From Methanolobus profundi (GTDB lineage: Archaea > Halobacteriota > Methanosarcinia > Methanosarcinales > Methanosarcinaceae): a stretch of 64,000 nt of DNA. Below the pieces are notes generated by a model, which was not told where the DNA came from, made no database searches, and saw only the letters and a program-made list of their open reading frames with translations. Shown piece after piece: positions 3,333 through 24,495 of this stretch; position 1 is the first letter of the stretch; each line of letters starts with the position of its first letter. A program made the position numbers and the translations under genes. The stretch covers positions 124,001 to 188,000 of the forward strand of contig NZ_FOUJ01000005.1 in assembly GCF_900114835.1 (NCBI RefSeq). Reading direction: 5' to 3'.

Positions 3333-4172
<840 letters not shown>

Positions 4173-4195
4173 ATTGGATAAGAGGTGAAAAAACA

Positions 4196-4513: not shown

Positions 4514-4532
4514 ATCCGTAGAGGGATGCCAA

Positions 4533-6490: not shown

Positions 6491-6504
6491 AGGAGGCCTG
6501 AAAA

Positions 6505-7875
6505 ATGTTAGATTATACACCAAAGGAAGAAGTGCAGAGAGATGCACTGGTCGTAAACCCTGCAAAGATCTGCCAGCCGATCGGTGCAACATATGCTGCA
6601 CTGGGTATACGCAACTGTATGCCACACAGCCATGGTTCACAGGGATGTCTTTCATACCTGAGAATGGCTCTTACAAGGCACTTCAGAGAACCAACCATCG
6701 GTACAACCAGCAGTTTCTATGAAGGTACTGCTGTATTCGGTGGTGCATCAAACCTCAAGAAGTCACTTGAGAACATTGAAGCTGTATACACCCCAGAGGT
6801 CATTGCAATACACACAACATGTCTTTCCGAGACTATTGGTGACGATGTAGGCTCAATGATCGAGGATGTAAAGGAAGAAGAACTCATCGACCCATCCATC
6901 AAGCTTTGTGCAGCATCAACCCCAAGTTATGTGGGTTCCCACGTGACAGGTTACGACAACATGGTAAAGTCATTTGTCACAACCTTTGCACAGAAGACAA
7001 AGCCAAACGGAAAGTTGAATATAATTCCTGGTTTCGTAGACCCAGGAGACATTCGTGAGATCAAGAGATTGCTCTCCATCATGAATATCCCTACGATCGT
7101 CTTCCCTGACCAGACAGATGTACTGGATACCGGAATCGGAATGGAAAGAGAACTGTTCGCAAATGGCGGAACACCTATCGGTGACGTAGAGGACAGTGCA
7201 AACTCCATGGGTACCATCGCACTCTGTGGAATGGCAGGAGGCGCAGCAGCAAATGTATTCAAGAACAAGTTCAAGATGCCAGTACAGATAGGACCTGCAC
7301 CAATAGGCGTACGCTTTACAGACAGGTTTGTCATGAAGGCAGCTGAACTTGCAAATGTTGCAATTCCACCAGAACTTGAACAGGAAAGAGCAAGGGTCGT
7401 TGACATGATGACAGATGCTCACCAACACTTCTATGGTAAGAAGGTAGCCATATTCGGTGACCCTGACATAATAGAAGGTCTCACAAGCCTTGTGCTTGAA
7501 ATGGGAATGGAGCCTGTTGTGGTTCTCTCAGGTTCAGTTAGCAAGGCTTTCGTAGAAAGAGTATCTGAAATGGTACACCCACTGTACCCTAACGCACAGA
7601 TCCTTGCAGAAGCTGACCTTTTCACACTCCACCAGATCATAAAGAACGAGCCAGTAGACATGCTGATCGGTAACACCTATGGTAAGCACATCGCTCTTGC
7701 CGAGGATATCCCACTGATCAGGGTAGGGTTCCCTATCATGGACAGGGCGAACCTGCACCACTTCCCTGTCATGGGATACGCAGGAGCAGCTCGCATGATC
7801 GAGTGGATAGGAAACACGTTCTTGGACATCAAGGACAAGACCGTTCCTGAAGAAGAAATAGAGATCGTCCAGTAA
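6505..7875 (+). CDS. nifK: Nitrogenase molybdenum-iron protein beta chain NifK
   Basis: A 456-residue beta subunit, the short form typical of archaea and clostridia that lacks the long N-terminal extension of Azotobacter NifK. Cysteine motifs for the P-cluster are visible in AKICQPIGA, GSQGCLSYLRM and THTTCLSETIGDD. It follows nifD by 14 bases with ribosome site GGAGG. Together with NifD it makes the alpha2beta2 dinitrogenase. A strong hairpin lies between its stop and nifE. Confidence 0.97.
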   Translation: MLDYTPKEEVQRDALVVNPAKICQPIGATYAALGIRNCMPHSHGSQGCLSYLRMALTRHFREPTIGTTSSFYEGTAVFGGASNLKKSLENIEAVYTPEVIAIHTTCLSETIGDDVGSMIEDVKEEELIDPSIKLCAASTPSYVGSHVTGYDNMVKSFVTTFAQKTKPNGKLNIIPGFVDPGDIREIKRLLSIMNIPTIVFPDQTDVLDTGIGMERELFANGGTPIGDVEDSANSMGTIALCGMAGGAAANVFKNKFKMPVQIGPAPIGVRFTDRFVMKAAELANVAIPPELEQERARVVDMMTDAHQHFYGKKVAIFGDPDIIEGLTSLVLEMGMEPVVVLSGSVSKAFVERVSEMVHPLYPNAQILAEADLFTLHQIIKNEPVDMLIGNTYGKHIALAEDIPLIRVGFPIMDRANLHHFPVMGYAGAARMIEWIGNTFLDIKDKTVPEEEIEIVQ

Positions 7876-7897
7876 AGATCTCAATATATAAGAACTC

Positions 7898-7932
7898 GAG
7901 GTCGTTCAGTAACGACCTCACATATATTTTTT
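7898..7932 (+). terminator. Intra-operon hairpin between nifK and nifE
   Basis: GAGGTCGTT (7898-7906), loop CAGT and AACGACCTC (7911-7919) make a perfect 9-bp stem with a 4-base loop, followed by ACATATA and six T (7927-7932). It sits in the only sizeable gap of the operon (68 bases). It could end part of the transcripts so that the structural genes exceed nifEN, or protect a processed 3' end. Confidence 0.6.
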
Positions 7933-7943
7933 GGAGTGAGAAC

Positions 7944-9440
7944 ATGCCAGACATTACAAGCGTGGTAGATACGCTGGATGAAAGAAAGCCATACATAGAA
8001 CTGAAGCAGGCAAACAAGTCAGGAGAACTTGCATGCGATAATACATCAATTGCCGGTTCCATGAGCCAGAGGGCCTGTGTATATTCAGGAGCACGTGTGG
8101 CACTTAATCCCGTAACCGATGCAATTCACCTCGTACACGGTCCCATTGGATGTGCAAGTTACACATGGGATATCAGAGGTAGCCTATCAAGTGATAAGGA
8201 GACGTTCCGTACCAGTTTTTCAACTGATATGAAGGAACTAGATGTTGTATTCGGTGGCGAGAAAAAACTCTCAAAGAGCATTGACGAACTGGTCGAGTTG
8301 TATAACCCACCTGCCATCTTTGTCTATTCAACCTGTATTGTCGGAATAATCGGCGATGATCTCGAAGCCATTTGTAAGGAAGCGACCGAAAGGGTAGGAA
8401 TACCCGTATTACCTGTAAAGTCAGAAGGATTCAAGGGAACAAAGTCCGATGGATATAAGGCAGCATGTAATGCGCTTATGGAACTTGTCGGAACAAAGGA
8501 ACCGGAGTTCACATCTGAATACAGGATAAATATACTCGGTGACTACAATGTGGCTGGAGATGTCTGGCTGGTAAAGCCCCTCTTTGAGAAGATGGGAATA
8601 CAGGTAATTACTTCAATGACAGGAGATTCAACTGTCGACAGTATCTCAAAGTCACATGGAGCACAATTGAACCTTGTACAATGTTCAGGTTCCATGACAT
8701 ATCTCGCAAAGTGGATGAAGAAGGAGTTTGGAATTCCTTTCACAAAGGTCAGCTACTTTGGAATAGAAGATCTTTCAATTGCATTGAGAACAACTGCTGA
8801 ATTCTTCGGTTCAGAAGAAATGATGAACATTGCAGAAGAAATAATCGAGCAGGAAACTAACAGGATCATGCCTGAGATAAAGGCAATAAGAAGCAGGCTT
8901 GAAGGAAAGACGGCAGCAATTTACATGGGCGGGGCAGCCAAGGCACTTACATTGATAAAGGGCTTCCGAGAACTCGGTATGGAAGTTGTTATAATTGGAA
9001 CACAAACAGGAAAGCGTGATGACTACAAGCAGATAAGTTATCAGGTAAAGGACGGAACGGTCATTGTTGATGACGCAAATCCTCTGGAACTTGCCGACCT
9101 TCTTAGAAATCAGAAGGCAGATCTCATGGTGGCAGGTGTCAAGGAAAGGTTCCTGGCTTACAAGCTTGGTGTTTCATTCTGTGATTTTAACCATGACAGA
9201 ACAATTGAATTCGAAGGTTACGATGGTTTCCTGAACTTTGCAAGGGAACTTGATACTTCGGTCAACAGTCCTGTATGGAAGTATGTTGGTAGTAAGATAG
9301 AGGACTCATATCCAGGAAGCAGCGGGGCAAACAAGGGCTGTGGAACTGAGGAAAGTCAAAAGATGTCCAACAGGATAACAGGGGAAAGGAATATGCAAAA
9401 TATCGATCCCATTACATTACAAGAGGAGTCAGTAGCATGA
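7944..9440 (+). CDS. nifE: Nitrogenase cofactor scaffold NifE
   Basis: A 498-residue NifD relative that forms the NifEN scaffold on which the precursor from NifB matures to FeMo-cofactor. Cluster-type cysteines appear in SQRACVYSGAR, GPIGCASYTWD and YSTCIVGIIGDD, but the NifD cofactor-ligand block HRSVNY is replaced by SGSMTY, and [10 protein letters not shown] by FCDFNHDRTIEF, as expected for NifE. The C-terminus carries about 50 extra low-complexity residues (GSSGANKGCGTEESQ and on). The start follows TTTTTTGGAGTGAG. It ends in a 4-base overlap with nifN. Confidence 0.94.
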   Translation: MPDITSVVDTLDERKPYIELKQANKSGELACDNTSIAGSMSQRACVYSGARVALNPVTDAIHLVHGPIGCASYTWDIRGSLSSDKETFRTSFSTDMKELDVVFGGEKKLSKSIDELVELYNPPAIFVYSTCIVGIIGDDLEAICKEATERVGIPVLPVKSEGFKGTKSDGYKAACNALMELVGTKEPEFTSEYRINILGDYNVAGDVWLVKPLFEKMGIQVITSMTGDSTVDSISKSHGAQLNLVQCSGSMTYLAKWMKKEFGIPFTKVSYFGIEDLSIALRTTAEFFGSEEMMNIAEEIIEQETNRIMPEIKAIRSRLEGKTAAIYMGGAAKALTLIKGFRELGMEVVIIGTQTGKRDDYKQISYQVKDGTVIVDDANPLELADLLRNQKADLMVAGVKERFLAYKLGVSFCDFNHDRTIEFEGYDGFLNFARELDTSVNSPVWKYVGSKIEDSYPGSSGANKGCGTEESQKMSNRITGERNMQNIDPITLQEESVA

Positions 9441-10852
9441 GCGAACGCAATTATACTACTGTCAACCCCTGTATAATGTGCCAGCCAATTGGCAGTGTAA
9501 TGGCTTTCAAGGGAATAGAAGATTCAATGGTCCTTTTACATGGTTCTCAGGGCTGCAGTACCTACATGAGACTGCACCTTGCACATCATTTCAGAGAACC
9601 TGTGGATATCGGCTCAAGCTCACTCAGTGAGAAGGGAGCAGTTTACGGTGGAAGCGAGAACCTCAAGAAGGCACTCAAGAATCTAATATCACGTTATGAT
9701 CCAAAGGTCATCGGTGTTGCAACAACATGTCTCGCAGAGACCATTGGAGACGACATCAATCGTATCATTTCTGAGTTCAGAGACGAAGAAGGTGTTGGTG
9801 ACGAGAGAATAATCATTCCTGTACCAACTCCAAGTTATGAGGAAAGTCACAACAGTGGATATATAAAGGCTGTTGAGGCTATCGTTAAGACCTTTACATT
9901 GGATAATTCAAAGAAGGATATATTCAACAATAAGTTGAATGTCATTCTTTCAGAGAACATCTCACCTGAGGACACAAGGGAGCTCAAGCATATATTCAAC
10001 AGTATTGTAGGACACAATTCTTCCATACTGCTGCCTGATATATCTGAGACCTTTGATGCACCTATGACAGGTGACCTCCACAAGATACCACCTGGGGGGA
10101 CTACACACGCTGATATTGCAGACATGAAGAACAGTGCTGCATCTATTGGATTAGGTATTACCAATGACAACAAAGCGGTCAACTATCTTGAGCAGACGTT
10201 TGATATCCCTTCACAAAACCTGCCCCTCCCGATCGGACTTGAATACACTGACAAGGTACTGGCCGCATTATCCAATATATCCGGAGTAGAGATCCCGGAT
10301 GAATTCCAGAAGGAAAGAGGAAGGCTTATCGATGCCATGGTGGACTCTCACAAGTATGTGTATGGAACAAAGGTCGCTATCTATGGTGATCCCAACAATG
10401 TACTTGGAATGCTTTCACTGGTACTTGAGAACGGCATGCATCCTATACTTGTGGTTGCTTCAAGCAAGTCACCAAGATTTGCAGAGCACGCCATGGAGAG
10501 GGTCAAGCAGGTCAAGCCTGACTGTGATGTGACCATCCTTGAGGATGTTGACTTTGACACATTCAACGATGCTGTCCAGAAGGCAAAGCCTCAGATGCTC
10601 ATTGGAAACTCCAATGGAAAGTACATCGCAAAGGAAATGAATATACCATTGATCAGATTCGGGTTCCCGATACACGATCGTGTAGGTGCCCAGAGGCTTC
10701 TGACAATTGGTTACAAGGGAGCAATGCGCATGCTTGACAGGATAACCAACACTATCTTGGAAGTTGAGGATACTGAATTAGCTGCGAAATGGTCTGAACC
10801 GGAAAGCTATGTTCCGCTCGGCGAGAATAGCTTTCACTCCGCAGAAGCGTGA
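9437..10852 (+). CDS. nifN: Nitrogenase cofactor scaffold NifN
   Basis: A 471-residue NifK relative, the partner of NifE. It has NPCIMCQPIGSV, GSQGCSTYMRL and ATTCLAETIGDD. Translation is coupled to nifE through the ATGA overlap at 9437-9440. Last gene of the nif operon here: where Methanosarcina operons commonly continue with nifX, this one ends in a terminator and convergent genes. nifB and nifV are also not in the window and must be elsewhere. Confidence 0.94.
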   Translation: MSERNYTTVNPCIMCQPIGSVMAFKGIEDSMVLLHGSQGCSTYMRLHLAHHFREPVDIGSSSLSEKGAVYGGSENLKKALKNLISRYDPKVIGVATTCLAETIGDDINRIISEFRDEEGVGDERIIIPVPTPSYEESHNSGYIKAVEAIVKTFTLDNSKKDIFNNKLNVILSENISPEDTRELKHIFNSIVGHNSSILLPDISETFDAPMTGDLHKIPPGGTTHADIADMKNSAASIGLGITNDNKAVNYLEQTFDIPSQNLPLPIGLEYTDKVLAALSNISGVEIPDEFQKERGRLIDAMVDSHKYVYGTKVAIYGDPNNVLGMLSLVLENGMHPILVVASSKSPRFAEHAMERVKQVKPDCDVTILEDVDFDTFNDAVQKAKPQMLIGNSNGKYIAKEMNIPLIRFGFPIHDRVGAQRLLTIGYKGAMRMLDRITNTILEVEDTELAAKWSEPESYVPLGENSFHSAEA

Positions 10853-11747: not shown

Positions 11748-14700
11748 TTATTTGTTTTTCCGCAGAACTACAATACCAGCCAGCAGTGCTACTATACTAA
11801 TAGTAGGTATCCAGAATGAGGCAGATGAACCTGATGTATCTGATCTTCCCTCATCCGCAGGAACACTTCTTTCTTCATCATCTGATAACATCGGCGTATC
11901 TGTCTGAGTATCCACTGCTTCTTCGCTTGATACTTCTGATCCAAGGGGTGTATCGTCTTTCGAGTCAATAATGCCATCATTATCAGTGTCTGCGTTGAAA
12001 GGATCAGTGCCCATTCTTCTCTCTACGAAATCGAACAGGCCATCACGATCAGAATCAAGCGGGCTGTCATCATCGTTGCTGCCGTCTTCTGATACAGCGG
12101 ACTCAACTCTTACTTCTCCGGAAAGTCCGTAAGTACTGAAGTGAGATATGTTGGCCCACATGTAACCTTCGTATTCATTGCCATCAATGATATCGTTCTC
12201 GGTGTTTATTCCAAGTTCATAGACCCAGTCCATGTCAGTGCTCATCTTTTCCCACTGGCCGCTGGTCTCGTTGTACCAGACCATTGAAAGTGTGGATTCA
12301 TCAACGTCACCAGCATCGTTGCCATCAAGGTCTCCTGTTCTGTCAAGATCACGACCTGTATAATATATAACGATCAATGCACGCTGGATATTGTTGACAG
12401 TTCCGTTCATTACATTCTCACTGACATTGATATCGAGATACTTGACACCAAGATCCTCAGTGGATAATCCAAAGCTCAGGTTATGAGGAAGTTCATCCTC
12501 ATAATACCGGTTAATTTCCATTGAAGGTCTGACCGGTTCCTTGAGCTCGACCATCACATAAAGTCCCAGGTCGCTGATAGAATCTGCCTTGAACTGACTT
12601 ACCGTTGTCAGGTACTCCAGATCGGAACCTGTCTTGAACAGTTCAAGTACCTTGTAATGGTCATTTGCATATGGATGTGAGAGCATAACCACGGTCTGGT
12701 TATCTGACCAGACATCATATTCTACTGCAAATCTGTCATAGACCGACCTCTGCATTTCTGAAAGCTTATCCGGAGCTACAGAAGCAAGTATGTTCATGGT
12801 GATATTACCTGCTGTTGTATTGTCCGTTCCTGGCCTTCCAACGAACAGGATATTCTCTTTATCAGAATAATTACTGATATTCTCCGGATCGAAGACGGTT
12901 ACATTGGTGTACTTCTCAAGATCCTCTATAAGCTTAAGGGTATCTTCGTCTTCATCATAGCTTGCCCATATCCTTTCAACATTTGATACAAATGTATATG
13001 GATCCTCAGAATCATTCAAACCATTTCCATCCGTATCGCCATTATTAGGATCAGTACCGTTCATGATCTCGAACAGATCAGAAAGACCGTCACCATCAGT
13101 ATCGTTACTCCTTGGATCTGTCATGTTATCTATTTCCTGACCATCGAGAATACCGTCTCCGTCGGTATCGTTGAGGTACATGCTGGTATTATAGAAGATC
13201 TCGTAGCCATCAAGCAGTCCATCACCATCAATATCAGGATTGCATGCATGATCATTATCCCAACTAAATTCCTCACCATCTGGTATTAGGTCATCATCAG
13301 AATCTGCATCCGTCATACTTGTACAGCTTTCGAATTCCTCACCATCAGGAAGGCCGTCACCATCGGTATCGGCGCTGAGTGGATTTGTACCATAACGTAT
13401 TTCTTCCCAATCCATTAAGCCATCATCATCTGTATTACCATTCCATGGATCACAACCAAAGAGGATCTCGGCGCTATCGCTCAAATGGTCACGATCACTA
13501 TCATAGTTCAGAGGGTTTGTACCCAGACTTAGTTCCACAAGGTCGCTCAGACCGTCATCATCTGAATCAGTGTCCCTTGGATCGGTTGAATTACTGTACT
13601 CTGCCAGGTCACTCAAACCGTCATAGTCTGTGTCTTCATTTAGAGGTTCACTATCAACACGAACTGTGTAAGTACCCGACTCATTGGTAAAGGTCACATC
13701 CCATCCGGCAGTTTCAATCACATCCATCAGTCCCTCTCCATCAGTATCGGTACTGTTGGTAGGTGACATCGGGTTAAGGTTGTTCAGATATTCCGCCTCA
13801 TCTCCAAGGCCATCTCTGTCGCTATCGGGTGAGAGGGGATCAGAGTAGACCGTCATATTAAAAGTACTGCCTTCATAGTTGAAACTGATCTGCCATCCAC
13901 TGATCTCCAGATAATCTGACATGTTATCGTTGTCAGTATCGTAGGCTGACATGTTAGTGCCGTAGATAAGTTCCATCCTGTCATTCAGGCCATCTCCATC
14001 CTTATCGGACTTTGCAGGATCAGAGTCTATGGAATTCAGCTCAAAAGCATCGCTCAAACCATCTCCGTCTGCATCCCATGACCAGGGGTATGGGTCATCA
14101 CCGTTGGCAAGACCATCATGGTCATGATCCAGTGCATCTAGCTCGCTCCATCTTACAAAGCCATCTAAACTATTAGGAAGTACATCAAAGTAGATAGGGT
14201 CCATTACAGTGTAAGTTGATCCTGTTTCTTCCACTGTAGTATACTTGTAACCATTCCAGAAGTCCCATTCTATCTTACGGTCAGTGTATATTATTTTATA
14301 CTCTGCTGTGAAGTATAGTCTTAGAGGGAAATTAATGTAGGCAGTATCCGGTTCGATCCATGCAACAGTCTCATAGGTAGTGTTCTGCTGGTCAGGATAT
14401 ACATTTTGTACTGATACAGTATTGGTGTAGTCACCTTTGTCTGCCTGCCAGTAAGCAAATGGTGTCTGTGCGTTCCCCCAGTTACTGTTCTTGTAGTGAG
14501 GAACTATATAGCTATCCTGGACATTCTGCCAGGTACCATCTGATGTCCTCGTGATCGTTCCGTTAATATAACTCCTGAAAATGATCTGGTCTCCCAGGTC
14601 CAATCCGTTACTTTCGTTATCCCTGAGATCAAGTGATGTATTTATCATGCCTAATGAGCACTCAGTGTTCGGATAAGTCTGATGGAACTTACCAACAAGC

Positions 14701-16865
14701 CATGACACAAAGTCAGAGAAGCCTATTCCGAAGATTCCAAGGATAAAATCGGTCAGACCTATAAGTCCCATAATGACACCTCCAACAAGAGCAATTATCC
14801 ATCCTACTGTCGGTATTGCTGCACATGCCAGGAGAAGCACACCTATAGCAAGCATTGCAGAAGCATATAATATCATTATCGTAGCATAAACAGCACCCTG
14901 GAAAGTACCGGTATTTGACCAGCCCTCGCTCATGGCTATATTAAAGAAGCCCCACAATGCAAAGCCAACATCAAAGACAAATCCTGCTACCATGGTGATT
15001 ATACCTATCACCCCAAGTACCTCTCCCAGACCATTCAGTCCTTTGGCAATGCTACCGATCACACCAATGGTCTTGTTCAGTGACTGGCTGGTGGTCAGCA
15101 GTATTCCTAAGAACCCTTTTACTGTTTCAAGTACATATTTGGTGGCAAAGAAGGCCCGATAAGCTATTTCTGTTGTATTTGCAACAAGGTCCATGAATGC
15201 AAAACTGACAAAGATGATATTTCCTGCCCATGACTGGATGTCGTTGAGAATATCCATTGCCACTGGATATTCAAAGGACATAAGCGTTCCACCTATCTTT
15301 GTGACCTTTGATTCACCCACAGACCATACGAGTGACAAAGCCATGACGGATTGAAGGGAGTCTGCATCTATACTCACTTCATTACCCCAGTCCTCAAGTT
15401 CACCAAACATAGATTCTGAACCTACGCGGGAATTATCCGTGGTATTGTACCAGTTTGTCTGCAGTGTCTTTAAAGAAATAACGGGTTCATTGCTCATATC
15501 TACGAAAATATCATTGCCAACAATGTATGAACCTGATCCCATATCAGAAAGGTCAGATATTGTGAAATTATTCTGGATCGCAGATATCACAGGGAGTATG
15601 CGGTCATCAGGAAGTGAATCCAGGGCATCAGGTGTCATTTCAGTAGTAAGTGCCTGCAATCCGAGGTCCTGATGTTCAAAACTATCAATATCAGAGGATA
15701 TAGTAATATTATGGTCAGCGAGTTCCAGTGGCATATCCTGCACAGTTGACCGGTTATCTCTTAAGAATGAGTAGGCCATCATGAAATTGGTACCAATGCT
15801 CTGATTCAGGTTATCTGTATAGAAGATCCCAACATCGGTTCCATAGCTCTCTTCTACACTTAGACCTGTAAGAGTGAAATCTTCCCTGTATGTTATAAGG
15901 GTCGTGGATTCTGTACTAATTGTGTTATTAGTTTCATCCAGACTATCTGTTTTTGCCTGAACGAGCCACAAAAGACTTGCATTGATATTGACGTCAGTAG
16001 TACTTGACTCCGGATAGAACATCTTTCCTGCAAGTGCAGTTTCTCCACCGATGCCGTTTACCTGGAACAGTGGAACATATACTCTGTCACCGGAAACACC
16101 AAGACCATAATCATCAACATCTGACTGGTCCGGGATCTGGTCCATTGTGAGTTCAAGAAGAGGTACTATCGTCAGGTCCTCTGTAGAATCATCAAGGTCC
16201 TGCATGGTACTTTTATTATCAAAAGGCCAGTCCAGTTCCTGATAGGCAAGTCGGACATGACTGGAAGCTTGTGGAACAAGCTGGAAATCAATGTAAACAG
16301 GGTTCCCATTGGTAGTAATATCAAAATTAAAATGATCTAAACTGGTTGAACGTGCAAAAGGTGATGGGTCAACGTTGTCCTCTACGCCGTCATCATCGTT
16401 GTCAAAATCCCAGATGTTAGATATACCATCTGAGTCGATGTCAAGAGATAGGACATCTGTAACTTCAAAATTATCAGAAAGGCCATCATAGTTAGAATCC
16501 ATCTCAAGTGGATCAGAAAGGTAAACTACGGATTCATTATAATCATCGAGCTGGTCATGATCAGAATCTGTGTTACTAATATTTGTTCCAAGTATCGATT
16601 CAACGGCATCAGGTAATCCATCGCCGTCCGTATCAGTTGGATCGGTTGTTACATTTATAAGTTCAAGAACATCCAGGCCATTAGATGCAGGAGTTTGCAT
16701 TTTTATCTGGGAGACCATTGAAAGCGCTGCGATGGTATCCTGAGGAATATAAGTCTCATTTTCATTATTGAACAGATCTTCATTGCTGGCTGCAACAGCA
16801 GGATAGAATTGAGCTCCTAATAGAACTATAGCTACAAGTACTTGGAATAATATGTTTCTCTTAAT
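11748..16865 (-). CDS. Giant surface protein with thrombospondin-3-like Ca-binding repeats
   Basis: From the first in-frame ATG (16718) the protein is 1656 residues. The frame continues upstream without a stop and there encodes a clear signal peptide (KRNILFQVLVAIVLLGAQF, then YPAVAAS). No ATG, GTG or TTG lies ahead of it; ATT at 16865 follows GGTG by 5 bases and is the best start, giving about 1705 residues. In ATG-based numbering: DxDxDG-type repeats at about 25-130, a unique extracellular part, a hydrophobic Gly/Ala-rich stretch of several helices at about 490-680, a long array of about 15 repeats at about 855-1245, a folded part, two more repeats near 1556-1590, and a C-terminal membrane anchor (FWIPTISIVALLAGIVVL) with a KNK tail. 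The repeats are expected to bind calcium. The internal hydrophobic domain is odd for a surface protein. Function unknown. Confidence 0.85.
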   Translation of the reverse strand: MKRNILFQVLVAIVLLGAQFYPAVAASNEDLFNNENETYIPQDTIAALSMVSQIKMQTPASNGLDVLELINVTTDPTDTDGDGLPDAVESILGTNISNTDSDHDQLDDYNESVVYLSDPLEMDSNYDGLSDNFEVTDVLSLDIDSDGISNIWDFDNDDDGVEDNVDPSPFARSTSLDHFNFDITTNGNPVYIDFQLVPQASSHVRLAYQELDWPFDNKSTMQDLDDSTEDLTIVPLLELTMDQIPDQSDVDDYGLGVSGDRVYVPLFQVNGIGGETALAGKMFYPESSTTDVNINASLLWLVQAKTDSLDETNNTISTESTTLITYREDFTLTGLSVEESYGTDVGIFYTDNLNQSIGTNFMMAYSFLRDNRSTVQDMPLELADHNITISSDIDSFEHQDLGLQALTTEMTPDALDSLPDDRILPVISAIQNNFTISDLSDMGSGSYIVGNDIFVDMSNEPVISLKTLQTNWYNTTDNSRVGSESMFGELEDWGNEVSIDADSLQSVMALSLVWSVGESKVTKIGGTLMSFEYPVAMDILNDIQSWAGNIIFVSFAFMDLVANTTEIAYRAFFATKYVLETVKGFLGILLTTSQSLNKTIGVIGSIAKGLNGLGEVLGVIGIITMVAGFVFDVGFALWGFFNIAMSEGWSNTGTFQGAVYATIMILYASAMLAIGVLLLACAAIPTVGWIIALVGGVIMGLIGLTDFILGIFGIGFSDFVSWLVGKFHQTYPNTECSLGMINTSLDLRDNESNGLDLGDQIIFRSYINGTITRTSDGTWQNVQDSYIVPHYKNSNWGNAQTPFAYWQADKGDYTNTVSVQNVYPDQQNTTYETVAWIEPDTAYINFPLRLYFTAEYKIIYTDRKIEWDFWNGYKYTTVEETGSTYTVMDPIYFDVLPNSLDGFVRWSELDALDHDHDGLANGDDPYPWSWDADGDGLSDAFELNSIDSDPAKSDKDGDGLNDRMELIYGTNMSAYDTDNDNMSDYLEISGWQISFNYEGSTFNMTVYSDPLSPDSDRDGLGDEAEYLNNLNPMSPTNSTDTDGEGLMDVIETAGWDVTFTNESGTYTVRVDSEPLNEDTDYDGLSDLAEYSNSTDPRDTDSDDDGLSDLVELSLGTNPLNYDSDRDHLSDSAEILFGCDPWNGNTDDDGLMDWEEIRYGTNPLSADTDGDGLPDGEEFESCTSMTDADSDDDLIPDGEEFSWDNDHACNPDIDGDGLLDGYEIFYNTSMYLNDTDGDGILDGQEIDNMTDPRSNDTDGDGLSDLFEIMNGTDPNNGDTDGNGLNDSEDPYTFVSNVERIWASYDEDEDTLKLIEDLEKYTNVTVFDPENISNYSDKENILFVGRPGTDNTTAGNITMNILASVAPDKLSEMQRSVYDRFAVEYDVWSDNQTVVMLSHPYANDHYKVLELFKTGSDLEYLTTVSQFKADSISDLGLYVMVELKEPVRPSMEINRYYEDELPHNLSFGLSTEDLGVKYLDINVSENVMNGTVNNIQRALIVIYYTGRDLDRTGDLDGNDAGDVDESTLSMVWYNETSGQWEKMSTDMDWVYELGINTENDIIDGNEYEGYMWANISHFSTYGLSGEVRVESAVSEDGSNDDDSPLDSDRDGLFDFVERRMGTDPFNADTDNDGIIDSKDDTPLGSEVSSEEAVDTQTDTPMLSDDEERSVPADEGRSDTSGSSASFWIPTISIVALLAGIVVLRKNK

Positions 16866-16955: not shown

Positions 16956-17537
16956 TTAATACACCCAGACCACCTCAGGTTCCTTTTTATCGGTCTCCCC
17001 AGGTTCCGTTACCGGATAGCCCATAACGATCGGTGCAACCACTCTGTAATCAGGAGTTATTCCAAGTTCTTCCAGTAACTCGGGATTATCCTGAATGAAA
17101 CAGGCTGTACCGATCCAGCAACTACCTATTCCCATGGAATGGGCTGCAAGCATCATATTCTCAGCACACAATGAACAATCAATGTCTGCAGTTACGCTTG
17201 CATTGTTACCAAGGACTATTATGAGGACCGGTGCATCGTAAAATATATGGAAGTCATCAGTTGAAAGTTTCTTCTTGAATTCGACCGCTGCATCATTGGT
17301 GGCCTCCTCAAGCATTGTAAGAAGACGTGGTTTACAATGATCTGACATCCTTTTCATCATTTCACGATTTTTTACCACAACAAAGAACCATGGCTGAATG
17401 TCAAAACCGGAAGGTGCGTGGATACCTGCATCAATAATTGTCTTGATGTCTTCGTCACTTACTTCCTTGTCAATATATTCCATGACACTTCTTCGTGTCT
17501 TTATATTTTCAATTACACTATTTTTTTCCACTCCCAT
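16956..17537 (-). CDS. Nitroreductase-family flavoprotein
   Basis: A 193-residue FMN-dependent nitroreductase-fold protein. The N-terminal IKTRRSVMEY matches the FMN-binding RRSxRxY motif, followed by IIDAGIHAPSGFDIQPWFFVVV (A-x-x-APSG-x-x-QPW), and GIGSCWIGTA near 125-135. These enzymes pass electrons from NAD(P)H or F420H2 to quinones, nitro compounds or thiol partners; the substrate cannot be told from sequence. Last gene of the redox operon, 11 bases after the FTR-like gene, with ribosome site GGGAGTGATT. Its place after Rieske, glutaredoxin and FTR-like genes suggests a role in the same electron chain. Confidence 0.88.
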   Translation of the reverse strand: MGVEKNSVIENIKTRRSVMEYIDKEVSDEDIKTIIDAGIHAPSGFDIQPWFFVVVKNREMMKRMSDHCKPRLLTMLEEATNDAAVEFKKKLSTDDFHIFYDAPVLIIVLGNNASVTADIDCSLCAENMMLAAHSMGIGSCWIGTACFIQDNPELLEELGITPDYRVVAPIVMGYPVTEPGETDKKEPEVVWVY

Positions 17538-17548
17538 GGAATCACTCC

Positions 17549-17890
17549 CTATTTCTTTGATTCGAGGAACTCTTGTAAAGATATCTGCATCAGGCTGTCA
17601 GGGTCATCAACATCCTTATGCACATACATGCCACACCAGCAACGCTTCATGGCATCATAGTGCTCTCTGTGGAAAGGGATACAGGGGCAGACAAGTTTCA
17701 TATCGTGTTCCCTTTCTCCTGTAAGACCCTGGCATGGACAGAATGGATTACCCTTTTCCTTTTCGATGTTAACTTCCTGTTCAAGAAGAAAATCAACCAG
17801 TTCTGTGTCAGGGCTGAACTTGTATCCCATAGGCTCGATGACCTTTGAGAACATAGTCCTGAGCTTCTCCTTTCTCTTTTCCATATCCAT
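17549..17890 (-). CDS. Ferredoxin:thioredoxin reductase catalytic-subunit-like protein
   Basis: A 113-residue protein with the full cysteine signature of the FTR catalytic (beta) chain: C51-P-C53, C68-P-C70 and C84-W-C86 (FCPCQGL, VCPCIPF, CWCGMY). In plants and cyanobacteria this chain holds a [4Fe-4S] cluster beside a disulfide and reduces thioredoxins in two one-electron steps; archaeal versions act without the variable alpha chain. The usual CHC of the third motif is CWC here, as in several archaeal members. The gene lies 6 bases after a glutaredoxin gene, its most likely protein partner in this operon. Confidence 0.9.
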   Translation of the reverse strand: MDMEKRKEKLRTMFSKVIEPMGYKFSPDTELVDFLLEQEVNIEKEKGNPFCPCQGLTGEREHDMKLVCPCIPFHREHYDAMKRCWCGMYVHKDVDDPDSLMQISLQEFLESKK

Positions 17891-17896
17891 TTTATA

Positions 17897-18145
17897 TCAC
17901 AGTCCTAGTAATTTTGCATACTTGTCCGGGTTGTACCCAACAACCACATCATCATTGACCTTCACGAACGGGAACGACATCTCAGAACCATGGGCAAGGC
18001 AATCTTCCCTAATGGCCTTTTTAGTGTCTCCGTCTGCTTTGTCATAATCAATATATTCGAATGGAATATCATGTTCCCTGAAGAACTTCTTAGCCCTCAT
18101 ACACCAGGGGCAGGTACTGAGGGTATACATAACTACTTTCTTCAT
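17897..18145 (-). CDS. Glutaredoxin / NrdH-like redoxin
   Basis: An 82-residue thioredoxin-fold redoxin with active site C12-P-W-C15 (LSTCPWCMRAKKF), a cis-proline region (MSFPFVKVNDDVVVGYN) and a C-terminal GYNPDKYAKLLGL helix. The start ATG overlaps the stop of the preceding Rieske gene (ATGA), and GGAGGTG precedes it. Methanogen redoxins of this kind are reduced by FTR-like or flavin reductases rather than by glutathione; the FTR-like gene directly downstream fits that. Confidence 0.92.
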   Translation of the reverse strand: MKKVVMYTLSTCPWCMRAKKFFREHDIPFEYIDYDKADGDTKKAIREDCLAHGSEMSFPFVKVNDDVVVGYNPDKYAKLLGL

Positions 18146-18495
18146 TCTCCGGCACCTCCCATATTTACAAACACATTTCCATCCTCGACCTTTGTCTGGT
18201 AGACAGGCACCTTTATCTCCTTTGCATTAAGGAACTCGCCATTTCGAATATCAAATTTCCAGTCATGGCATGGACATACTATCAAGTATTGTTCCAGGGT
18301 GCCTTTAGACAACGGACATTCCATATGAGGACACTTGTTGGACATCGCAAAAAAGACACCTTCCTTCTTAAGGAGCAAAACCTTGTTACCTTCCAGTAAC
18401 AATGCTGTCTTCTCACCCTCAGGAAGTTCATCTTCCTTAATTGCCATGATCCATTTGCTTTCTTGATCCATAAACACATTCCTGTTGTATATCAT
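18142..18495 (-). CDS. Rieske [2Fe-2S] protein (second of three)
   Basis: A small soluble Rieske ferredoxin. Cluster ligands are CPH and CPCH, 16 residues apart (KCPHMECPLSKG, VCPCHDWKF), with the extra cysteine pair HMEC and CPC that forms a disulfide in bc1/b6f-type Rieske proteins. The frame from ATG 18495 overlaps the previous stop (ATGA), giving 117 residues. Comparison with its two neighbours favours the downstream ATG at 18471 (MDQESKWIMAIKEDELPEG lines up with their starts), giving 109 residues. No signal peptide and no oxygenase partner nearby. Confidence 0.93.
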   Translation of the reverse strand: MIYNRNVFMDQESKWIMAIKEDELPEGEKTALLLEGNKVLLLKKEGVFFAMSNKCPHMECPLSKGTLEQYLIVCPCHDWKFDIRNGEFLNAKEIKVPVYQTKVEDGNVFVNMGGAGE

Positions 18496-18797
18496 GTAAG
18501 AATGGAGATCTTTCCATCCTTCACCTGTGTTTCATATACGTTCACCCGGATCTTATCGGATGCTATATACGCCCCGGTCCGAACATCAAAGGTCCAGCTA
18601 TGACATGGACATTTGATAGAATATTCCTGCAGAGTTCCGCCCTGAAGCTGACAGTTCATATGGGGGCAGCGGTTCTCAAGGGCAAATACCTCCCCGTTGA
18701 TACGGAGAAGGATCATCTGCTGATCTCCGATACTCACAGGTACTATTTTACCTTCTTTGACTTCATTGTCATCTGCAGCGATAGCCCACGAGGACAT
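18492..18797 (-). CDS. Rieske [2Fe-2S] protein (first of three by position, middle in operon)
   Basis: A 101-residue soluble Rieske ferredoxin with ligand motifs RCPHMNCQLQGG and KCPCHSWTF, again carrying the HMxC plus CPC disulfide cysteines. Ribosome site GGGAGATC just before ATG 18797. It overlaps the next Rieske gene by 4 bases. Clearly a paralogue of its neighbours, yet diverged enough that the duplication is old. In archaea stand-alone Rieske ferredoxins usually serve as electron carriers; the partner is unknown. Confidence 0.93.
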   Translation of the reverse strand: MSSWAIAADDNEVKEGKIVPVSIGDQQMILLRINGEVFALENRCPHMNCQLQGGTLQEYSIKCPCHSWTFDVRTGAYIASDKIRVNVYETQVKDGKISILT

Positions 18798-18822
18798 TTT
18801 GATCTCCCTTCAATATCACTGT

Positions 18823-19137
18823 TCATAAAAGGACAAGTATCTCGCCGTCTTCCACCTTGTTCTCGTACATATCAAGGACCTCATCCTCATCTCCCTGATA
18901 TTTTCCGGACCTGATATCATATTCCCATCCGTGGCACGGGCATTTCAGTATGAACTCATCACTGAATGTCCCTTTTGAAAGGCGACAACCCATATGTTTA
19001 CACTTACCAAAAAGAGAATAGATAGTTCCGTTCTTTCTGATCAGAAGCACAGGTGTTCCCTTCACTCTGGCAAACTCCATACTTCCTTCTTTCAGGTCAC
19101 TGTCCTTTAATGCGTAGAACCAGGATCTTTCTGACAT
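18823..19137 (-). CDS. Rieske [2Fe-2S] protein (promoter-proximal)
   Basis: A 104-residue Rieske ferredoxin with KCKHMGCRLSKG and KCPCHGWEYD; the spacing between motifs is one residue longer (17) than in its two paralogues. Start ATG 19137 is chosen because GGGAGGT lies 4 bases upstream; a longer open frame reaching 19260 would overlap the MATE gene and adds a non-homologous leader. First gene of the six-gene redox operon, with a TATA box at about 19170-19180 on this strand. Confidence 0.92.
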   Translation of the reverse strand: MSERSWFYALKDSDLKEGSMEFARVKGTPVLLIRKNGTIYSLFGKCKHMGCRLSKGTFSDEFILKCPCHGWEYDIRSGKYQGDEDEVLDMYENKVEDGEILVLL

Positions 19138-19169: not shown

Positions 19170-19180
19170 AATATAAATAG
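19170..19180 (-). promoter_or_regulatory. Predicted TATA box of the Rieske operon
   Basis: Reading the minus strand, CTATTTATATT lies about 35-43 bases ahead of the first Rieske ATG. A start about 25 bases downstream would give a short leader containing GGGAGGT. Confidence 0.5.
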
Positions 19181-19210
19181 TTGTCGTGGAATAAAAATAT
19201 GGTAGCAAGC

Positions 19211-20572
19211 TTATGAATTGCTACTTCTGTGCTGGAAGAACTTGTATTCTCTCCAGACAAGGAACATACTTATGATCGCTGCCATGAGGTCTGATATTGG
19301 AAATGCCATCCATACTCCGGAGAGATCGAAGTAATATGGGAGCAGGATCACCAGAGGTATCAGGAACAATATCTGACGGCACATTGACAGGAAGAAGGAT
19401 GGCCTGGCTTTGCCAAGCGACTGGAACAGTGTCGTTCCAATTACGTTCATACCTATCAATGGACTTGCCAGGACCATTATCCTCAGGGCAGATGCTCCGT
19501 TACTGATCAGATCTGCATCAGTGCTGAACATGCTGAAGAATGTCCCAGGGAATATTGAAAGCAATGTCACGCCAACAAGTCCGAAGAGAGTTGTGATGAT
19601 AAGCGATGTTCTGACAGATTCATTCACTCTTGCATAGTTCTCAGCTCCATAGTTATAGCCAACAATGGGTTGGAGACCATGTGATATCCCTATTATAGGC
19701 ATGAGTATAAGCATTATCAATTTTATCGAAACACCAAATACAGCTATTGAGAGGTCTCCTCCATAGACGGCAAGTACGTTGTTCAGTACAAGCATCATGA
19801 AACTGTTCGATGCTCCCATTACAAAGGAACCAAAGCCAATAACGGTTATTTCTTTGATCAGATCGAACTTTGGAGTGAGATTTGCCAGTTTCAGTTTGAG
19901 AGGACTTTTTCCTGTAATGTAATAGTATAACAGATAGATAGTACCTGCCAGTTGTGCGAGTACGGTTGCAAGAGCTGCACCCTTTACTCCCATGCCAAAT
20001 CCGAACATCAGGATGGCATCAAGGAATATATTCAAAACTCCTGAGAACACCATGTTGTTCATGGCGATCTTGGAATTGCCTTCGGCCCTGACGAGATTGT
20101 TCAATACGAATCCGAATGTGAAAGCAAGTGTACCCTGCAATATAACTACAGCATATTCTTTTGCGTAGATCTGATTATCAACTGTGGCACCGAACAGGTT
20201 CAATATTGTGTCCACATTGAAGAAGAACAGTATCTGGAAAAGGATACTAATTATTATTGTATAGGAAAAGACGTTCCCAAGAGTCCTCTCTGCTTTTTCT
20301 ACATCTTTGGAACCAAGCATTCTTGAAATTACCGACGAACCTCCGACACCTATTCCAATAGATATTGCTATCATAAGCATCTGCAAAGGAAAAGCAACAG
20401 CTACTCCTGCAATTCCCAGGACACTCTGGTCACCCAGTGCTCTTCCGACAAAGAAAGTGTCCACCAGATTGTAGAATGCCTGTACGAGAAGTCCTATTAT
20501 GGCAGGTGTGGCCAGTTTCCATAATAGCTTGTTGATACTTTCAGTACCCAAGAATTCACTTTTGTTGTTCAT
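19211..20572 (-). CDS. MATE-family multidrug/sodium antiporter
   Basis: A 453-residue integral membrane protein with about 12 helices in two related halves, typical MATE length. The start SINKLLWKLATPAIIGLLVQ and FFVGRALG match the N-terminal MATE signature; the second half repeats it around AVFGVSIKLIMLILMPIIG and GLQPIVGYNYGA. MATE proteins export organic cations or other small molecules in exchange for H+ or Na+. It lies 33 bases behind a marR gene on the same strand, the common regulator-pump pair, so it is probably induced when the pump substrate binds the regulator. Confidence 0.93.
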   Translation of the reverse strand: MNNKSEFLGTESINKLLWKLATPAIIGLLVQAFYNLVDTFFVGRALGDQSVLGIAGVAVAFPLQMLMIAISIGIGVGGSSVISRMLGSKDVEKAERTLGNVFSYTIIISILFQILFFFNVDTILNLFGATVDNQIYAKEYAVVILQGTLAFTFGFVLNNLVRAEGNSKIAMNNMVFSGVLNIFLDAILMFGFGMGVKGAALATVLAQLAGTIYLLYYYITGKSPLKLKLANLTPKFDLIKEITVIGFGSFVMGASNSFMMLVLNNVLAVYGGDLSIAVFGVSIKLIMLILMPIIGISHGLQPIVGYNYGAENYARVNESVRTSLIITTLFGLVGVTLLSIFPGTFFSMFSTDADLISNGASALRIMVLASPLIGMNVIGTTLFQSLGKARPSFFLSMCRQILFLIPLVILLPYYFDLSGVWMAFPISDLMAAIISMFLVWREYKFFQHRSSNS

Positions 20573-20605: not shown

Positions 20606-21049
20606 TTAATTCTCTGAGCCCCTGTCGAATTCTATGAGGGTATCTTTGGCCTTGTCCAGAAGCTTCCTGAAGATGGCTTCTTCTTCTTCCGAGAACTCAG
20701 AGAGGAGTATCTGGTTCCACTCATGGAGCGTTCTGTTGATCAGAGGGATGACTTCCCTGCCTTTATCAGAGATGAAGACCCGGTATATACGTCTGTCATC
20801 ATCATCCTTTTCCCGATATGCATAACCTTCTTTTTCAAGGGCAACAATGGCTCTTGTTGCAGTAGCTTTGCTCAGGTTCAGATAACGCGCCAGACCTTCC
20901 TGGGAACAACCGTCCTTGTGGGACAGTGTCAGCAGGAACGCGAACATAGGTCCTTTCAGGTTATAGGACTCAAGGGCATTTTCAATGTAAAAATGGTTAT
21001 GTGAAAATATATAACCAATTTTTGCGCCGATCCTCTCTGATTGCTTCAT
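20606..21049 (-). CDS. MarR-family transcriptional regulator
   Basis: A 147-residue winged-helix protein. The HTH part GLARYLNLSKATATRAIVAL is followed by the wing KEGYAYREKDDDDRRIYRVF, where DxR in the wing is the MarR hallmark. It heads the operon with the MATE exporter. Two 20-bp near-identical palindromic boxes lie 25-65 bases upstream of its start, overlapping the likely promoter, so autorepression plus control of the exporter is the natural reading. Confidence 0.92.
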   Translation of the reverse strand: MKQSERIGAKIGYIFSHNHFYIENALESYNLKGPMFAFLLTLSHKDGCSQEGLARYLNLSKATATRAIVALEKEGYAYREKDDDDRRIYRVFISDKGREVIPLINRTLHEWNQILLSEFSEEEEAIFRKLLDKAKDTLIEFDRGSEN

Positions 21050-21073: not shown

Positions 21074-21113
21074 TAGTTTCATGTGAAACCAATTAGTTTA
21101 ATGTGAAACTAAT
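21074..21113. promoter_or_regulatory. Tandem palindromic operators upstream of marR
   Basis: Two adjacent 20-bp units that differ at two positions: TAGTTTCATGTGAAACCAAT (21074-21093) and TAGTTTAATGTGAAACTAAT (21094-21113). Each is a palindrome, the first perfect over GTTTCA-TG-TGAAAC. The spacing of 20 bp puts them two helical turns apart on the same DNA face. The minus-strand TATA (TTTATATATTA) abuts the second unit. Confidence 0.75.
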
Positions 21114-21176: not shown

Positions 21177-22337
21177 TCAGACCTTCTGCCTGCGGTTAAG
21201 AGAATACATCTGGATCTTCTTCATCTTGGCAAGATTAAGAGCACCTTTCATCTCTTTTTGCTCAAGCAGACGGGCATCAACATAACCTGCATCAACTGCC
21301 TCGTTGAAGATGTCGTAACCAATTCTGGAACGTGCAAGAACGGTGGTCCAGCCCTGAGGTGTGCCTACGCCACCAAACGAAATATCTGCATTCTCAGCTG
21401 CCATGTCTGTACAGTATTTGCATGAACTGCTTCTATACTGGTCTAATTCATCAAGCGGGAAAACCCTGAGCTCATCAGGTGTCTGGAACTCGAACTTACC
21501 TTTCCGGATCTTCATGGACTCGATATCGGCAAGTTTCATATCCCTGCTCTCTACAAATTCTCTGATACCTTCATAATAGAAAGTGTCCATACAGAACAGT
21601 CCCATTTTAAGAATATTTGCTCTCATGAACAAATGCAGGAATCCCTGTGGACTTTTCTGCATCTTCGTAACTGCATCGATATTACAGCTCGGTCCAACAA
21701 AAGCAATACTCCTCATGCCTTCCTTCACAGCATCCATCAAAGCCCTGAGGGTCATACTGTGGCTGTAAATACTTCCTGAGCCTTCAAGGATATCCTCGTA
21801 GGTCTTTGCAACAATAGGCACAGGTTTCCATGGCTCTTCATCTGATCTGGTCGTAACGATGGCACAGTCAATGAGCCCTGCATCCAGAGCATAGCCGAGC
21901 ATGGCAGTCACAACGCCACCATCCTGTCCTTTTAGTCCCGGTAGAGCTGACTTTGCAGAATAGGCGTTGCGAAGTTTTCCTACCAGTCCGTCCTCTGTTG
22001 TAATTGTCCTTGGGCACTGGTTATAGCAAACTCCACATGCAGTACATTTGTCTACAAGTGTAGGCTCTTCATTTTTGAAAATAATAGACTCACATGATGC
22101 GGTACATGCTCCGCAAAGGGTGCATATTCCAGGCTTGATAATATCCTTCCTGAGCTTTCCAAAAGATATCTTCTCCTGCTCAGCAATGGACCTCTTAAGG
22201 CGTACAACTCTCTTTTCCAGAGGATCTGACTTATTATTACCTTCATAAGAGCAGAATCGATACTTTTCCCCGGCATTATCCATAGAACGAGAAGTATCTT
22301 TCTGCATGTTGTTTTTACAGATAAGATCGCTAGACAT
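21177..22337 (-). CDS. F420-hydrogenase/dehydrogenase beta-subunit-like protein (FrhB family)
   Basis: A 386-residue protein with two [4Fe-4S] motifs (GICTLCGACTASC and DKCTACGVCYNQC at about 72-110), then the FrhB domain: GQDGGVVTAMLGYALDAG, AFVGPSCNIDAV and the cysteine-rich SSSCKYCTDMAAENADISFG. FrhB-family proteins bind FAD and iron-sulfur clusters and exchange a hydride with coenzyme F420. The first 60 residues are variable and polar. The gene is divergent from a small siroheme reductase gene, 250 bases apart; in F420-dependent sulfite reductase (Fsr) these two modules are fused, so the pair may be a split form (inference). Confidence 0.88.
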   Translation of the reverse strand: MSSDLICKNNMQKDTSRSMDNAGEKYRFCSYEGNNKSDPLEKRVVRLKRSIAEQEKISFGKLRKDIIKPGICTLCGACTASCESIIFKNEEPTLVDKCTACGVCYNQCPRTITTEDGLVGKLRNAYSAKSALPGLKGQDGGVVTAMLGYALDAGLIDCAIVTTRSDEEPWKPVPIVAKTYEDILEGSGSIYSHSMTLRALMDAVKEGMRSIAFVGPSCNIDAVTKMQKSPQGFLHLFMRANILKMGLFCMDTFYYEGIREFVESRDMKLADIESMKIRKGKFEFQTPDELRVFPLDELDQYRSSSCKYCTDMAAENADISFGGVGTPQGWTTVLARSRIGYDIFNEAVDAGYVDARLLEQKEMKGALNLAKMKKIQMYSLNRRQKV

Positions 22338-22589
22338 TTTATTTCTCCCAGGATCGCGGATGTCCTTTCAGGATTGATAATATCGTTCTTATAGTATAAA
22401 ACAACATTTGAATTTAATAATCGTGATGGTTCGCTGCATAATGATTATTAGTTATAATTATTAATTATGAGAATATGTGGGGCATAATGTTTTTACAATA
22501 TAGCCTATATCAAATTTACTTGTTCTTAATTATTATAGATGTGTAATTTCAGTAAAATAACTACCAACTGGAAACAGAAAGTGACCAAA

Positions 22590-23444
22590 ATGGCAAAGAA
22601 AGACACAGATAAAGACCTGCTCAAGGAGAAAGGTTTTCTTTCCCAGAGGCAGGATGACCATTTCGCTATGCGTCTACATGCAGCAGGTGGTAACGTAACA
22701 TCTGACTATCTCCGGGCTGTGGCTGATGCTGCAGACAAATACGGCAAAGGCTATGTGCACATAACCTCCCGACAGGGAGTGGAGATACCCTTTGTTCACC
22801 TTGATGATACCGAAGCCGCCAGTGAGACCATGCTGTCAGCAGGTATCGGTCCGGGAGCATCCGGGAAAAAGATAAGGGCAGTTGTGGCATGCCAGGGGGA
22901 TCGTGTCTGTAAACGTGGTCTCATCGACTGCCAGGAAATGTGCGAGAAGATAGATGAACTATACTTTGCTGCTCCGGTTCCCTACAAGTTCAAGATCGCA
23001 GTGACTGGATGTCCCGCATCATGCCTGAAAGTTCAGGAGAATGACTTTGGTATCATGGGATTTGAAGAACCGGTCTTCGTTGAAGAGAACTGTGTCATGT
23101 GCAGGCAATGTGAGAAAGCCTGCGAGGTTTCTGCCATCAAAATAGAGGATGGAAGTCTCTATCTGGATATGCATAAATGCGTGGCCTGCGGCCGCTGCAT
23201 CGGAGCCTGCAAAAAGGATGCTATGCGGACAAAGGATAAGGGTTTCACAATATTCGTGGGTGGCAAGGTAGGTAAAAGGCCACGCATGGGTAACATGTTG
23301 CTCAGGACATGTGACAGCGATGAGGTGTTCGATATCCTTGAGAGGACCATAAACTATTATCGTGAGAATGCCCTTGAAGGTGAGCGTCTGGGTGATGTCA
23401 TAGACCGTTGCGGTCTGGATAGTTTCGGGGAAACCGTTAAATGA
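22590..23444 (+). CDS. Small dissimilatory-sulfite-reductase-like siroheme protein
   Basis: 284 residues from ATG 22590, chosen because the N-terminus then begins as in the family and GTGACC stands just ahead; an upstream ATG at 22539 would add 17 unconserved residues. The siroheme-[4Fe-4S] cysteines are C101-x5-C107 (ACQGDRVCKRG) and C141-x3-C145 (TGCPASCLK). Two ferredoxin-type [4Fe-4S] motifs follow (CVMCRQCEKAC and CVACGRCIGAC). This is the single-chain Dsr-like type widespread in methanogens, related to the C-terminal half of Fsr. Substrate not known: sulfite, nitrite or a sulfur-transfer step are all possible. Confidence 0.9.
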   Translation: MAKKDTDKDLLKEKGFLSQRQDDHFAMRLHAAGGNVTSDYLRAVADAADKYGKGYVHITSRQGVEIPFVHLDDTEAASETMLSAGIGPGASGKKIRAVVACQGDRVCKRGLIDCQEMCEKIDELYFAAPVPYKFKIAVTGCPASCLKVQENDFGIMGFEEPVFVEENCVMCRQCEKACEVSAIKIEDGSLYLDMHKCVACGRCIGACKKDAMRTKDKGFTIFVGGKVGKRPRMGNMLLRTCDSDEVFDILERTINYYRENALEGERLGDVIDRCGLDSFGETVK

Positions 23445-23511
23445 TCCCGGCAAAAATAACCTGTATAGATACATTACTAAAAATGCCCATCTTTTTGGTA
23501 TTGGAGAATCC

Positions 23512-24495
23512 ATGAAACCAGAAACCAAAGCACAACTCATCTCAGTAGGGTCCGTGAATATGGATCCTGCTCTTATCCATTGGTTAACTATTCCTACAGC
23601 AGGTCCTGGAGCCGGGAATATAGCTTTCTTCTTTAATTCCGGTGGTCACCGTGTGCGTCTTGCTGTCAAAAAAGAATCCCCTCTGGAAGCTAAGATGGAG
23701 GACGGAGAACTTGTCATCAGAAGAGATGGCGTAGAGATAGCAAGAGGAAGCATCGAAGAAGAACTCATCCACTGTCCTGATCAGGCTTTTATCACGATGT
23801 GTGAGAAGTGTGTCTTCGACTGCAAGTTCTGTCCGGTCCCAAAACTTGGCGGTAAGGTCAAGAGCATGGACCAGATGCTGACGATGATAGCAGATGCCAA
23901 TGAAACAGGCAGTATGAAAGCCATTTCCATTACTTCCGGTGTTGAAACATCTGCAGAGAAAGAGGTTGAGAGGGCTGAGGAACTTGTCCGCAGGCTCAAG
24001 GAAAAGTATGATGTGCCTATAGGTGTCTCGGTCTATCCTACAGAAGATTCCACCCTCCGGCTCAAAGCAGCAGGTGCTGACGAGCTAAAATACAATGTTG
24101 AGACCATGGACCGTAAACTCCATGCTGAACTGTGTCCTGACCAGGACCTTGAGTTCCTTCTTGATGCACTCAGGGAAGGTGTAAAGGTATTCGGAAAGAA
24201 CAAGGTCTGCTCTAATTTCATAATCGGTCTTGGAGAAACAGATGAGTCCGCAGAGAAAGGTATAGAGGAACTTGTATCCATTGGTGTGGTGCCGATCCTC
24301 AGGGCAGCTGCACAGCATCCGTTACGTAAGGGTGAGGTAACAGTGGAAAGGCCAACTGCTGAAAGGCTGATGCATCTGAACCTCTTCCTGAAGGAAAAAC
24401 TGGACGAGTATGGTCTGCGCGCCGATACGTTCGATACTATGTGTCTGCCATGTACTGGCTGTGACATCAATCCTCATCTGGATATCGAGGATTGA
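23512..24495 (+). CDS. Radical SAM protein with extra C-terminal cysteines
   Basis: A 327-residue radical SAM enzyme. The SAM cluster motif is C100-x3-C104-x2-C107 (KCVFDCKFCPV), placed unusually late: about 95 residues of N-terminal domain come first. The barrel continues with SITSGVET and NFIIGLGETDE. The C-terminus has CLPCTGCDINPH, three more cysteines that could bind a second cluster, as in BioB-like enzymes. It lies 67 bases behind the siroheme gene on the same strand, so cotranscription and a sulfur-related role are plausible, but no named family was recognised. Confidence 0.85.
   Translation: MKPETKAQLISVGSVNMDPALIHWLTIPTAGPGAGNIAFFFNSGGHRVRLAVKKESPLEAKMEDGELVIRRDGVEIARGSIEEELIHCPDQAFITMCEKCVFDCKFCPVPKLGGKVKSMDQMLTMIADANETGSMKAISITSGVETSAEKEVERAEELVRRLKEKYDVPIGVSVYPTEDSTLRLKAAGADELKYNVETMDRKLHAELCPDQDLEFLLDALREGVKVFGKNKVCSNFIIGLGETDESAEKGIEELVSIGVVPILRAAAQHPLRKGEVTVERPTAERLMHLNLFLKEKLDEYGLRADTFDTMCLPCTGCDINPHLDIED

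Follow-up and report, generated by a model that had tools for sequence, protein, structure and literature searches.

The window analysed here is a stretch of 64,000 nucleotides from the archaeon Methanolobus profundi (contig NZ_FOUJ01000005.1, positions 124,001 to 188,000), in which positions 16956-19137 hold an operon of six dense minus-strand ORFs encoding three small Rieske proteins, a glutaredoxin (Grx), a disulfide reductase of the ferredoxin-thioredoxin reductase (FTR) type and a nitroreductase-family flavoprotein. The ORF calls and the Pfam matches concur with the earlier gene calls and confirm the close packing, with two 4-base overlaps, that had been described in a previous reading made from the letters alone (the sequence-only reading). 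The first gene, RieA (18823..19137, minus strand), begins with an ATG at 19137, immediately preceded by a GGAGGT site, and encodes a Rieske [2Fe-2S] protein with the motifs CKHMGC...CPCHGWEY (PF00355, 3.4e-19). It is followed on the same strand by RieB (18492..18797; CPHMNC...CPCHSWTF; PF00355, 2.4e-21) and RieC (18142..18495; CPHMEC...CPCHDWKF; PF00355, 1.7e-20), the latter being the copy that adjoins the Grx gene and also the one retained by modules with a single Rieske gene. All three proteins belong to the type designated R1 below, are about 100-117 aa in length with the Rieske domain beginning near the N-terminus, and carry both CxHMxC and CPCH, so the extra cysteine pair reported earlier for each of them is indeed present.

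The remaining three genes, also on the minus strand, encode a dithiol glutaredoxin with a CPWC active site (17897..18145; PF00462, 4.7e-12; PDB matches 3ic4, 3nzn and 5cax), a homologue of both methanoredoxin and A. fulgidus Grx-1, the catalytic chain of a [4Fe-4S] disulfide reductase of the FTR type (17549..17890; PF02943, 2.7e-26; fold matches 7pwe and 4tpu), and an accessory FMN nitroreductase-family flavoprotein (16956..17537; PF00881, 1.7e-31) that is conserved in the genus and in a second genus, g11. The three Pfam families agree with the identities first proposed for these products. The FTR is 113 aa long, with all six cysteines (CPC..CPC..CWC) intact and no rubredoxin domain. Spacing from RieA to the nitroreductase gene amounts to 25, -4, -4, 6 and 11 bases, with the overlaps lying between RieB and RieC and between RieC and Grx. 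The M. profundi genome (3.1 Mb, 99.96% complete) encodes only one further Rieske protein, which stands alone on a different contig, and three PF02943 proteins, while neither a PF00033 cytochrome b nor an oxygenase-sized Rieske protein was found in it.

A total of 112 genomes of the family were surveyed, 76 of which had a Rieske match. Of 26 further Methanolobus genomes searched, 25 carry the cluster, with the make-up Rieske(1-3)-Grx-FTR-nitroreductase, including one genome (G054) that has lost FTR at the locus; MATE and MarR genes accompany it in 19 and 17 of these 25 loci, respectively. Decayed copies in the genus include L048, which is without FTR, and L036, in which RieA and MATE are broken. 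The same gene set, without MATE and MarR, was observed in g11, a single Rieske-Grx-FTR set only in g2, g9, g10 and g12, and Rieske genes with no module in g5, g7 and g13. Across the phylum the module is patchy, being present in 34 of 393 genomes, and in four more of its genomes, outside the class, the full R1-Grx-FTR-R2 set was found with overlapping or closely spaced genes.

Scanning 84,980 species genomes with an FTR alignment yielded 109 loci, of which 80 were retained, and 57 loci outside the family formed the distant set. The order R1-Grx-FTR-R2 dominates this set (46 loci), followed by R1-Grx-FTR (seven), R1-FTR-R2 (two, with the Grx gene a few kb upstream), Grx-FTR-R2 (one, at a contig end) and FTR-R2 (one), so that R1 adjoins Grx-FTR or FTR in 55 of the 57. 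The module loci span about 16 NCBI phyla of bacteria and archaea. Given its recurrence in the genus, in the family and at distant loci, a chance grouping of these genes is excluded. The evolutionarily conserved unit is R1-Grx-FTR, usually with R2 located 3' of FTR, and the three Rieske genes and the nitroreductase of Methanolobus are local elaborations of it. The expectation that relatives would keep the same gene order held, with one to three Rieske genes, in Methanolobus and g11, whereas elsewhere it is the smaller unit that is conserved. A variant without R2 and with lower-scoring glutaredoxins was observed in Bacillota and one Lithacetigenota record (L156, L165, L180, L181, L187 and L196), with that of L156 being CYHC and NrdH-like. 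Searches of plasmids, phages and viral contigs for the module gave zero matches, and an origin from mobile elements or viruses was rejected on this ground. As the sequence-only reading had supposed, no account of a Rieske-Grx-FTR make-up was found in the open-access literature or in annotation libraries.

The Rieske proteins of the module fall into two types, and the residue counts that separate them include close relatives and are not counts of independent events. Both extra cysteines are kept in 134 of 135 readable R1 copies, with the single loss in L046, and in none of 50 R2 copies. Every R1 copy (135/135) has Trp at H+2, the position of the bc1 Ser after CPCHG, while H+4 is occupied by Tyr in 37 copies and by Phe in the other 98. 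Over 49 diverse rows, the R1 invariants are C55, H57, C60, C74, C76, H77, W79 and G86 in RieC numbering. Profile ranking of the operon proteins placed NirD and dioxygenase ferredoxins at the top, with every curated NCBIfam cut-off missed (NirD, 61.4 bits against 74.65; AndAb, 58.3 against 150), and the AlphaFold model of RieC (pLDDT 91.8) matched best the naphthalene dioxygenase ferredoxin, with TM-scores of 0.80/0.90. Hence the earlier description of these proteins as high-potential and of bc1 type did not hold: like bc1/b6f Rieske proteins, module R1 proteins have an extra cysteine pair beside the cluster ligands, but they lack a membrane anchor, carry Trp for Ser and mostly Phe at H+4, match the bc1/b6f profiles weakly and below cut-off, and occur here in a genome without PF00033. 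Beyond the cysteine pair, R1 resembles the oxygenase and NirD ferredoxins more closely, by sequence, fold and the invariant Trp; R2 likewise has these as its nearest neighbours by profile. Two aligned examples of the oxygenase/NirD group are, however, without the cysteine pair, and members of that group serve oxygenases, of which none is encoded here. In bc1 proteins, the cluster potential is elevated by two residues of the motif CPCHGSxY, the Ser and the Tyr. Because this Ser is missing in all R1 copies, the R1 potential is expected to be lower than that of bc1.

The claim that no bc or oxygenase partner is at hand was borne out both in the M. profundi genome and beside stand-alone Rieske genes, at the six loci inspected. 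In g7, a Rieske gene whose product lacks the cysteine pair (L070:4177-5539) is divergent from neighbouring methionine sulfoxide reductase A- and B-like genes, and stand-alone R1-like genes in g5 and g13 (L073:5269-7262, L071 and L076) adjoin phytoene desaturase-like FAD and corrinoid-protein-like genes, named by eye.

On the thiol side of the module, all six FTR cysteines are invariant in 95 of 95 module FTRs and the Grx cysteine pair in 92 of 92, as CPWC in 75 and as NrdH-like CYHC or CFHC in some modules. Module FTRs form one clade (support 99/97), apart from the FTR-rubredoxin (FDR) enzymes and the short FTRs of the same archaea. Inside it, the g12 (Methanosalsum) copies group with Methanoperedens, a placement that indicates lateral transfer. 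Pairwise distances of the four module families correlate with one another (rho 0.29-0.59, p=0.005), a signal in which co-evolution and shared descent are not separated. The PF02943 match above cut-off, with four cluster and two redox cysteines (CPC..CPC..CxC), places the window protein in the FTR/FDR family, and PF00462 together with the CxxC site places its partner among the dithiol glutaredoxins and methanoredoxins.

By fold, the module FTR is matched best by 7pwe, a natural fusion of Grx and FDR from Desulfotalea psychrophila, and by 4tpu, the FDR of M. acetivorans. The former joins Grx and FTR in one chain, as the module does by adjacency, but has no Rieske part. M. acetivorans methanoredoxin is reported to work with coenzyme M and FDR (PMC6491703). 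This pair shares with the module the CPC/CPC/CxC domain and a small iron carrier tied to FTR, and a Grx gene lies directly 5' of the FTR-rubredoxin gene in L209-L211, where an FTR domain precedes a rubredoxin-like domain. The differences are that the FDR carrier is a fused C-terminal rubredoxin, which the window FTR lacks, whereas the module carrier is a separate Rieske protein; that the two FTR clades are distinct; and that methanoredoxin has CVWC instead of CPWC. Chloroplast and cyanobacterial FTRs have the same six catalytic cysteines and PF02943 domain but use a plant-type ferredoxin; aligned by fold, identity is about 21%. The operon encodes Grx as the FTR partner, with neither a variable subunit nor a thioredoxin in it (the rest of the genome was not searched for these). 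A natural fusion of thioredoxin-like and FTR domains was also observed (L207:575-1300).

Upstream of RieA lies a conserved promoter element CACGACAACTATTTATA, a TATA-type box preceded by CACGACAA (19172..19188, minus strand), which almost every Methanolobus and g11 locus retains and which has its sole exact genome match at the module. The form CACGACAAYTATTTATA is common to the two genera and, with one mismatch, precedes the stand-alone Rieske gene of G042 and a second module copy in L132. A wider regulon of this motif was rejected, with mismatched genome matches at the level of the reversed-pattern control, the single-mismatch G042 site being the exception. The next genes on the minus strand encode a MATE-family efflux transporter (19211..20572; PF01554, 1e-48), the co-directional upstream gene in most members of the genus, and a MarR-family regulator (20606..21049; PF01047, 6.9e-14), whose Cys48 is invariant in 18 of 18 homologues. 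Two palindromic operator-like repeats, TTAGTTTCACATTAAACTAA and GTTTCACATGAAAC (21076..21112, minus strand), are conserved in the genus just 3' of a TATA-like box upstream of marR, and GTTTCANNTGAAAC, from this repeat region, is found at just three genomic sites. Since RieA is preceded by a promoter-like element of its own, the module probably forms a transcription unit distinct from marR-MATE.

In other phyla, a nitroreductase gene lies upstream of the module at six Actinomycetota loci, and an Fe/Mn superoxide dismutase (SOD) gene downstream of it in Actinomycetota, with a total of eight scanned loci, the clustering listing one from Ignavibacteriota. Flanking-gene clustering and Pfam scans for a larger conserved neighbourhood found only these two recurring above a few loci. 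This recurrence of a flavin reductase and an antioxidant gene supports a probable role in stress, and the link to stress proposed earlier gains from it.

A nif-type cluster occupies 3351-10852 of the window, with NifH at 3351-4172 followed by nitrogenase-like D/K/E/N, named from their sequences rather than by family search, and nif-like or glutamine synthetase-like genes also flank the module in Methanolobus L036, L042, L046 and L048. A functional role of these neighbours was set aside in favour of genus-level synteny, because the module occurs in many other kinds of organism (nif presence was not surveyed). On the same strand, 3' of the module, a predicted surface protein of 1656 aa with many DxDxDG repeats (11748-16718) has a homologue likewise placed in several relatives, and in the interval 21177-24495 a small dissimilatory-type sulfite reductase-like protein and an apparent radical SAM protein are encoded opposite a divergent FrhB/FpoF-family protein.

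By analogy with FDR, in which Grx and FTR go with rubredoxin, we regard it as on balance narrowly probable that the module encodes a disulfide reductase system resembling FDR but with Rieske ferredoxins instead of rubredoxin, and that it probably serves to repair thiols when cells are stressed by oxidants or electrophiles. The Rieske [2Fe-2S] proteins would be reduced by a cellular donor, which may be the FMN nitroreductase or else ferredoxin or F420H2, and would hand on electrons one at a time to FTR at its [4Fe-4S]/disulfide centre; FTR would then reduce the CPWC glutaredoxin, and this in turn the disulfides of target proteins, probably upon exposure to oxidants or electrophiles. This scheme, including its direction, donor and targets, is proposed on inference, as is the role in stress, and a dedicated relay from Rieske carriers to thiols, as first suggested, remains the best reading. 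Several points weigh against it. Rieske clusters are usually too positive for strong disulfide reduction, so that flow could be unfavourable or reversed. R2 is present in 50 of the 57 distant loci but absent from the M. profundi operon, R1-type genes also stand alone in module-free genomes, the links to nitroreductase and SOD are confined to certain lineages, and many of the distant loci come from metagenome bins, yet several lie on contigs of >100 kb. A bolder version, unlikely as a whole, would have a pan-domain thiol redox system apart from thioredoxin and glutathione, in which Grx switches the R1 cysteine pair, coupling one-electron [2Fe-2S] to two-electron thiol chemistry, and the pair-less R2 docks on FTR as its donor.

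The main rival to the FDR-like system, which we consider fairly unlikely, holds that the Rieske proteins are clients, with the R1 cysteine pair a reversible thiol/disulfide switch kept reduced by FTR and Grx that tunes the potential of proteins serving another enzyme. A structural disulfide is unusual in the cytosol of an anaerobe, and the short R1 proteins leave no space for an export signal; the near-universal pair in R1 against none in R2, and the 4-base overlap of the R1 and Grx genes, fit this account as well. Nevertheless, the M. profundi genome yielded no further enzyme that uses a Rieske protein, R1-type genes with the pair exist without the module, and the pair could be a constitutive, bc1-like disulfide. 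Housekeeping thiol reduction without any function specific to stress, for instance of ribonucleotide reductase, a peroxiredoxin or else methionine sulfoxide reductase, seems quite improbable: Grx/FTR pairs are general disulfide reductants and the NrdH-like variants point the same way, but presence in so few genomes of the phylum means that the module is not essential, and the co-location with MarR-MATE, nitroreductase and SOD argues otherwise. Very improbable, in our estimate, is a reverse flow in which thiols are oxidised and the Rieske proteins accept the electrons or sense redox state, even though the R1 potential may lie above that of thiol couples. The characterised FTR and FDR enzymes act reductively (PMC7278568; PMC6491703). 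That the Rieske proteins belong as subunits to an oxygenase, a bc complex or a nitrite reductase, their genes merely adjoining thiol genes, is hardly credible and largely refuted, for although NirD and dioxygenase ferredoxins head the profile matches, all curated cut-offs were missed and no partner was found, whether in the genome or next to those related genes that were inspected.

To our knowledge, Rieske proteins have been described almost exclusively in bc complexes, oxygenases and some reductases, and the Rieske-Grx-FTR module looks like a widespread, undescribed route of electrons to protein thiols. It makes testable the idea that the "bc1" cysteine pair is a thiol switch in a cytosolic protein, and its carriers include culturable methanogen genera. 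If true, the unit conserved across about 16 phyla would assign a function to many orphan Rieske ferredoxins and provide a new electron entry point into the protein thiol reduction of anaerobes.
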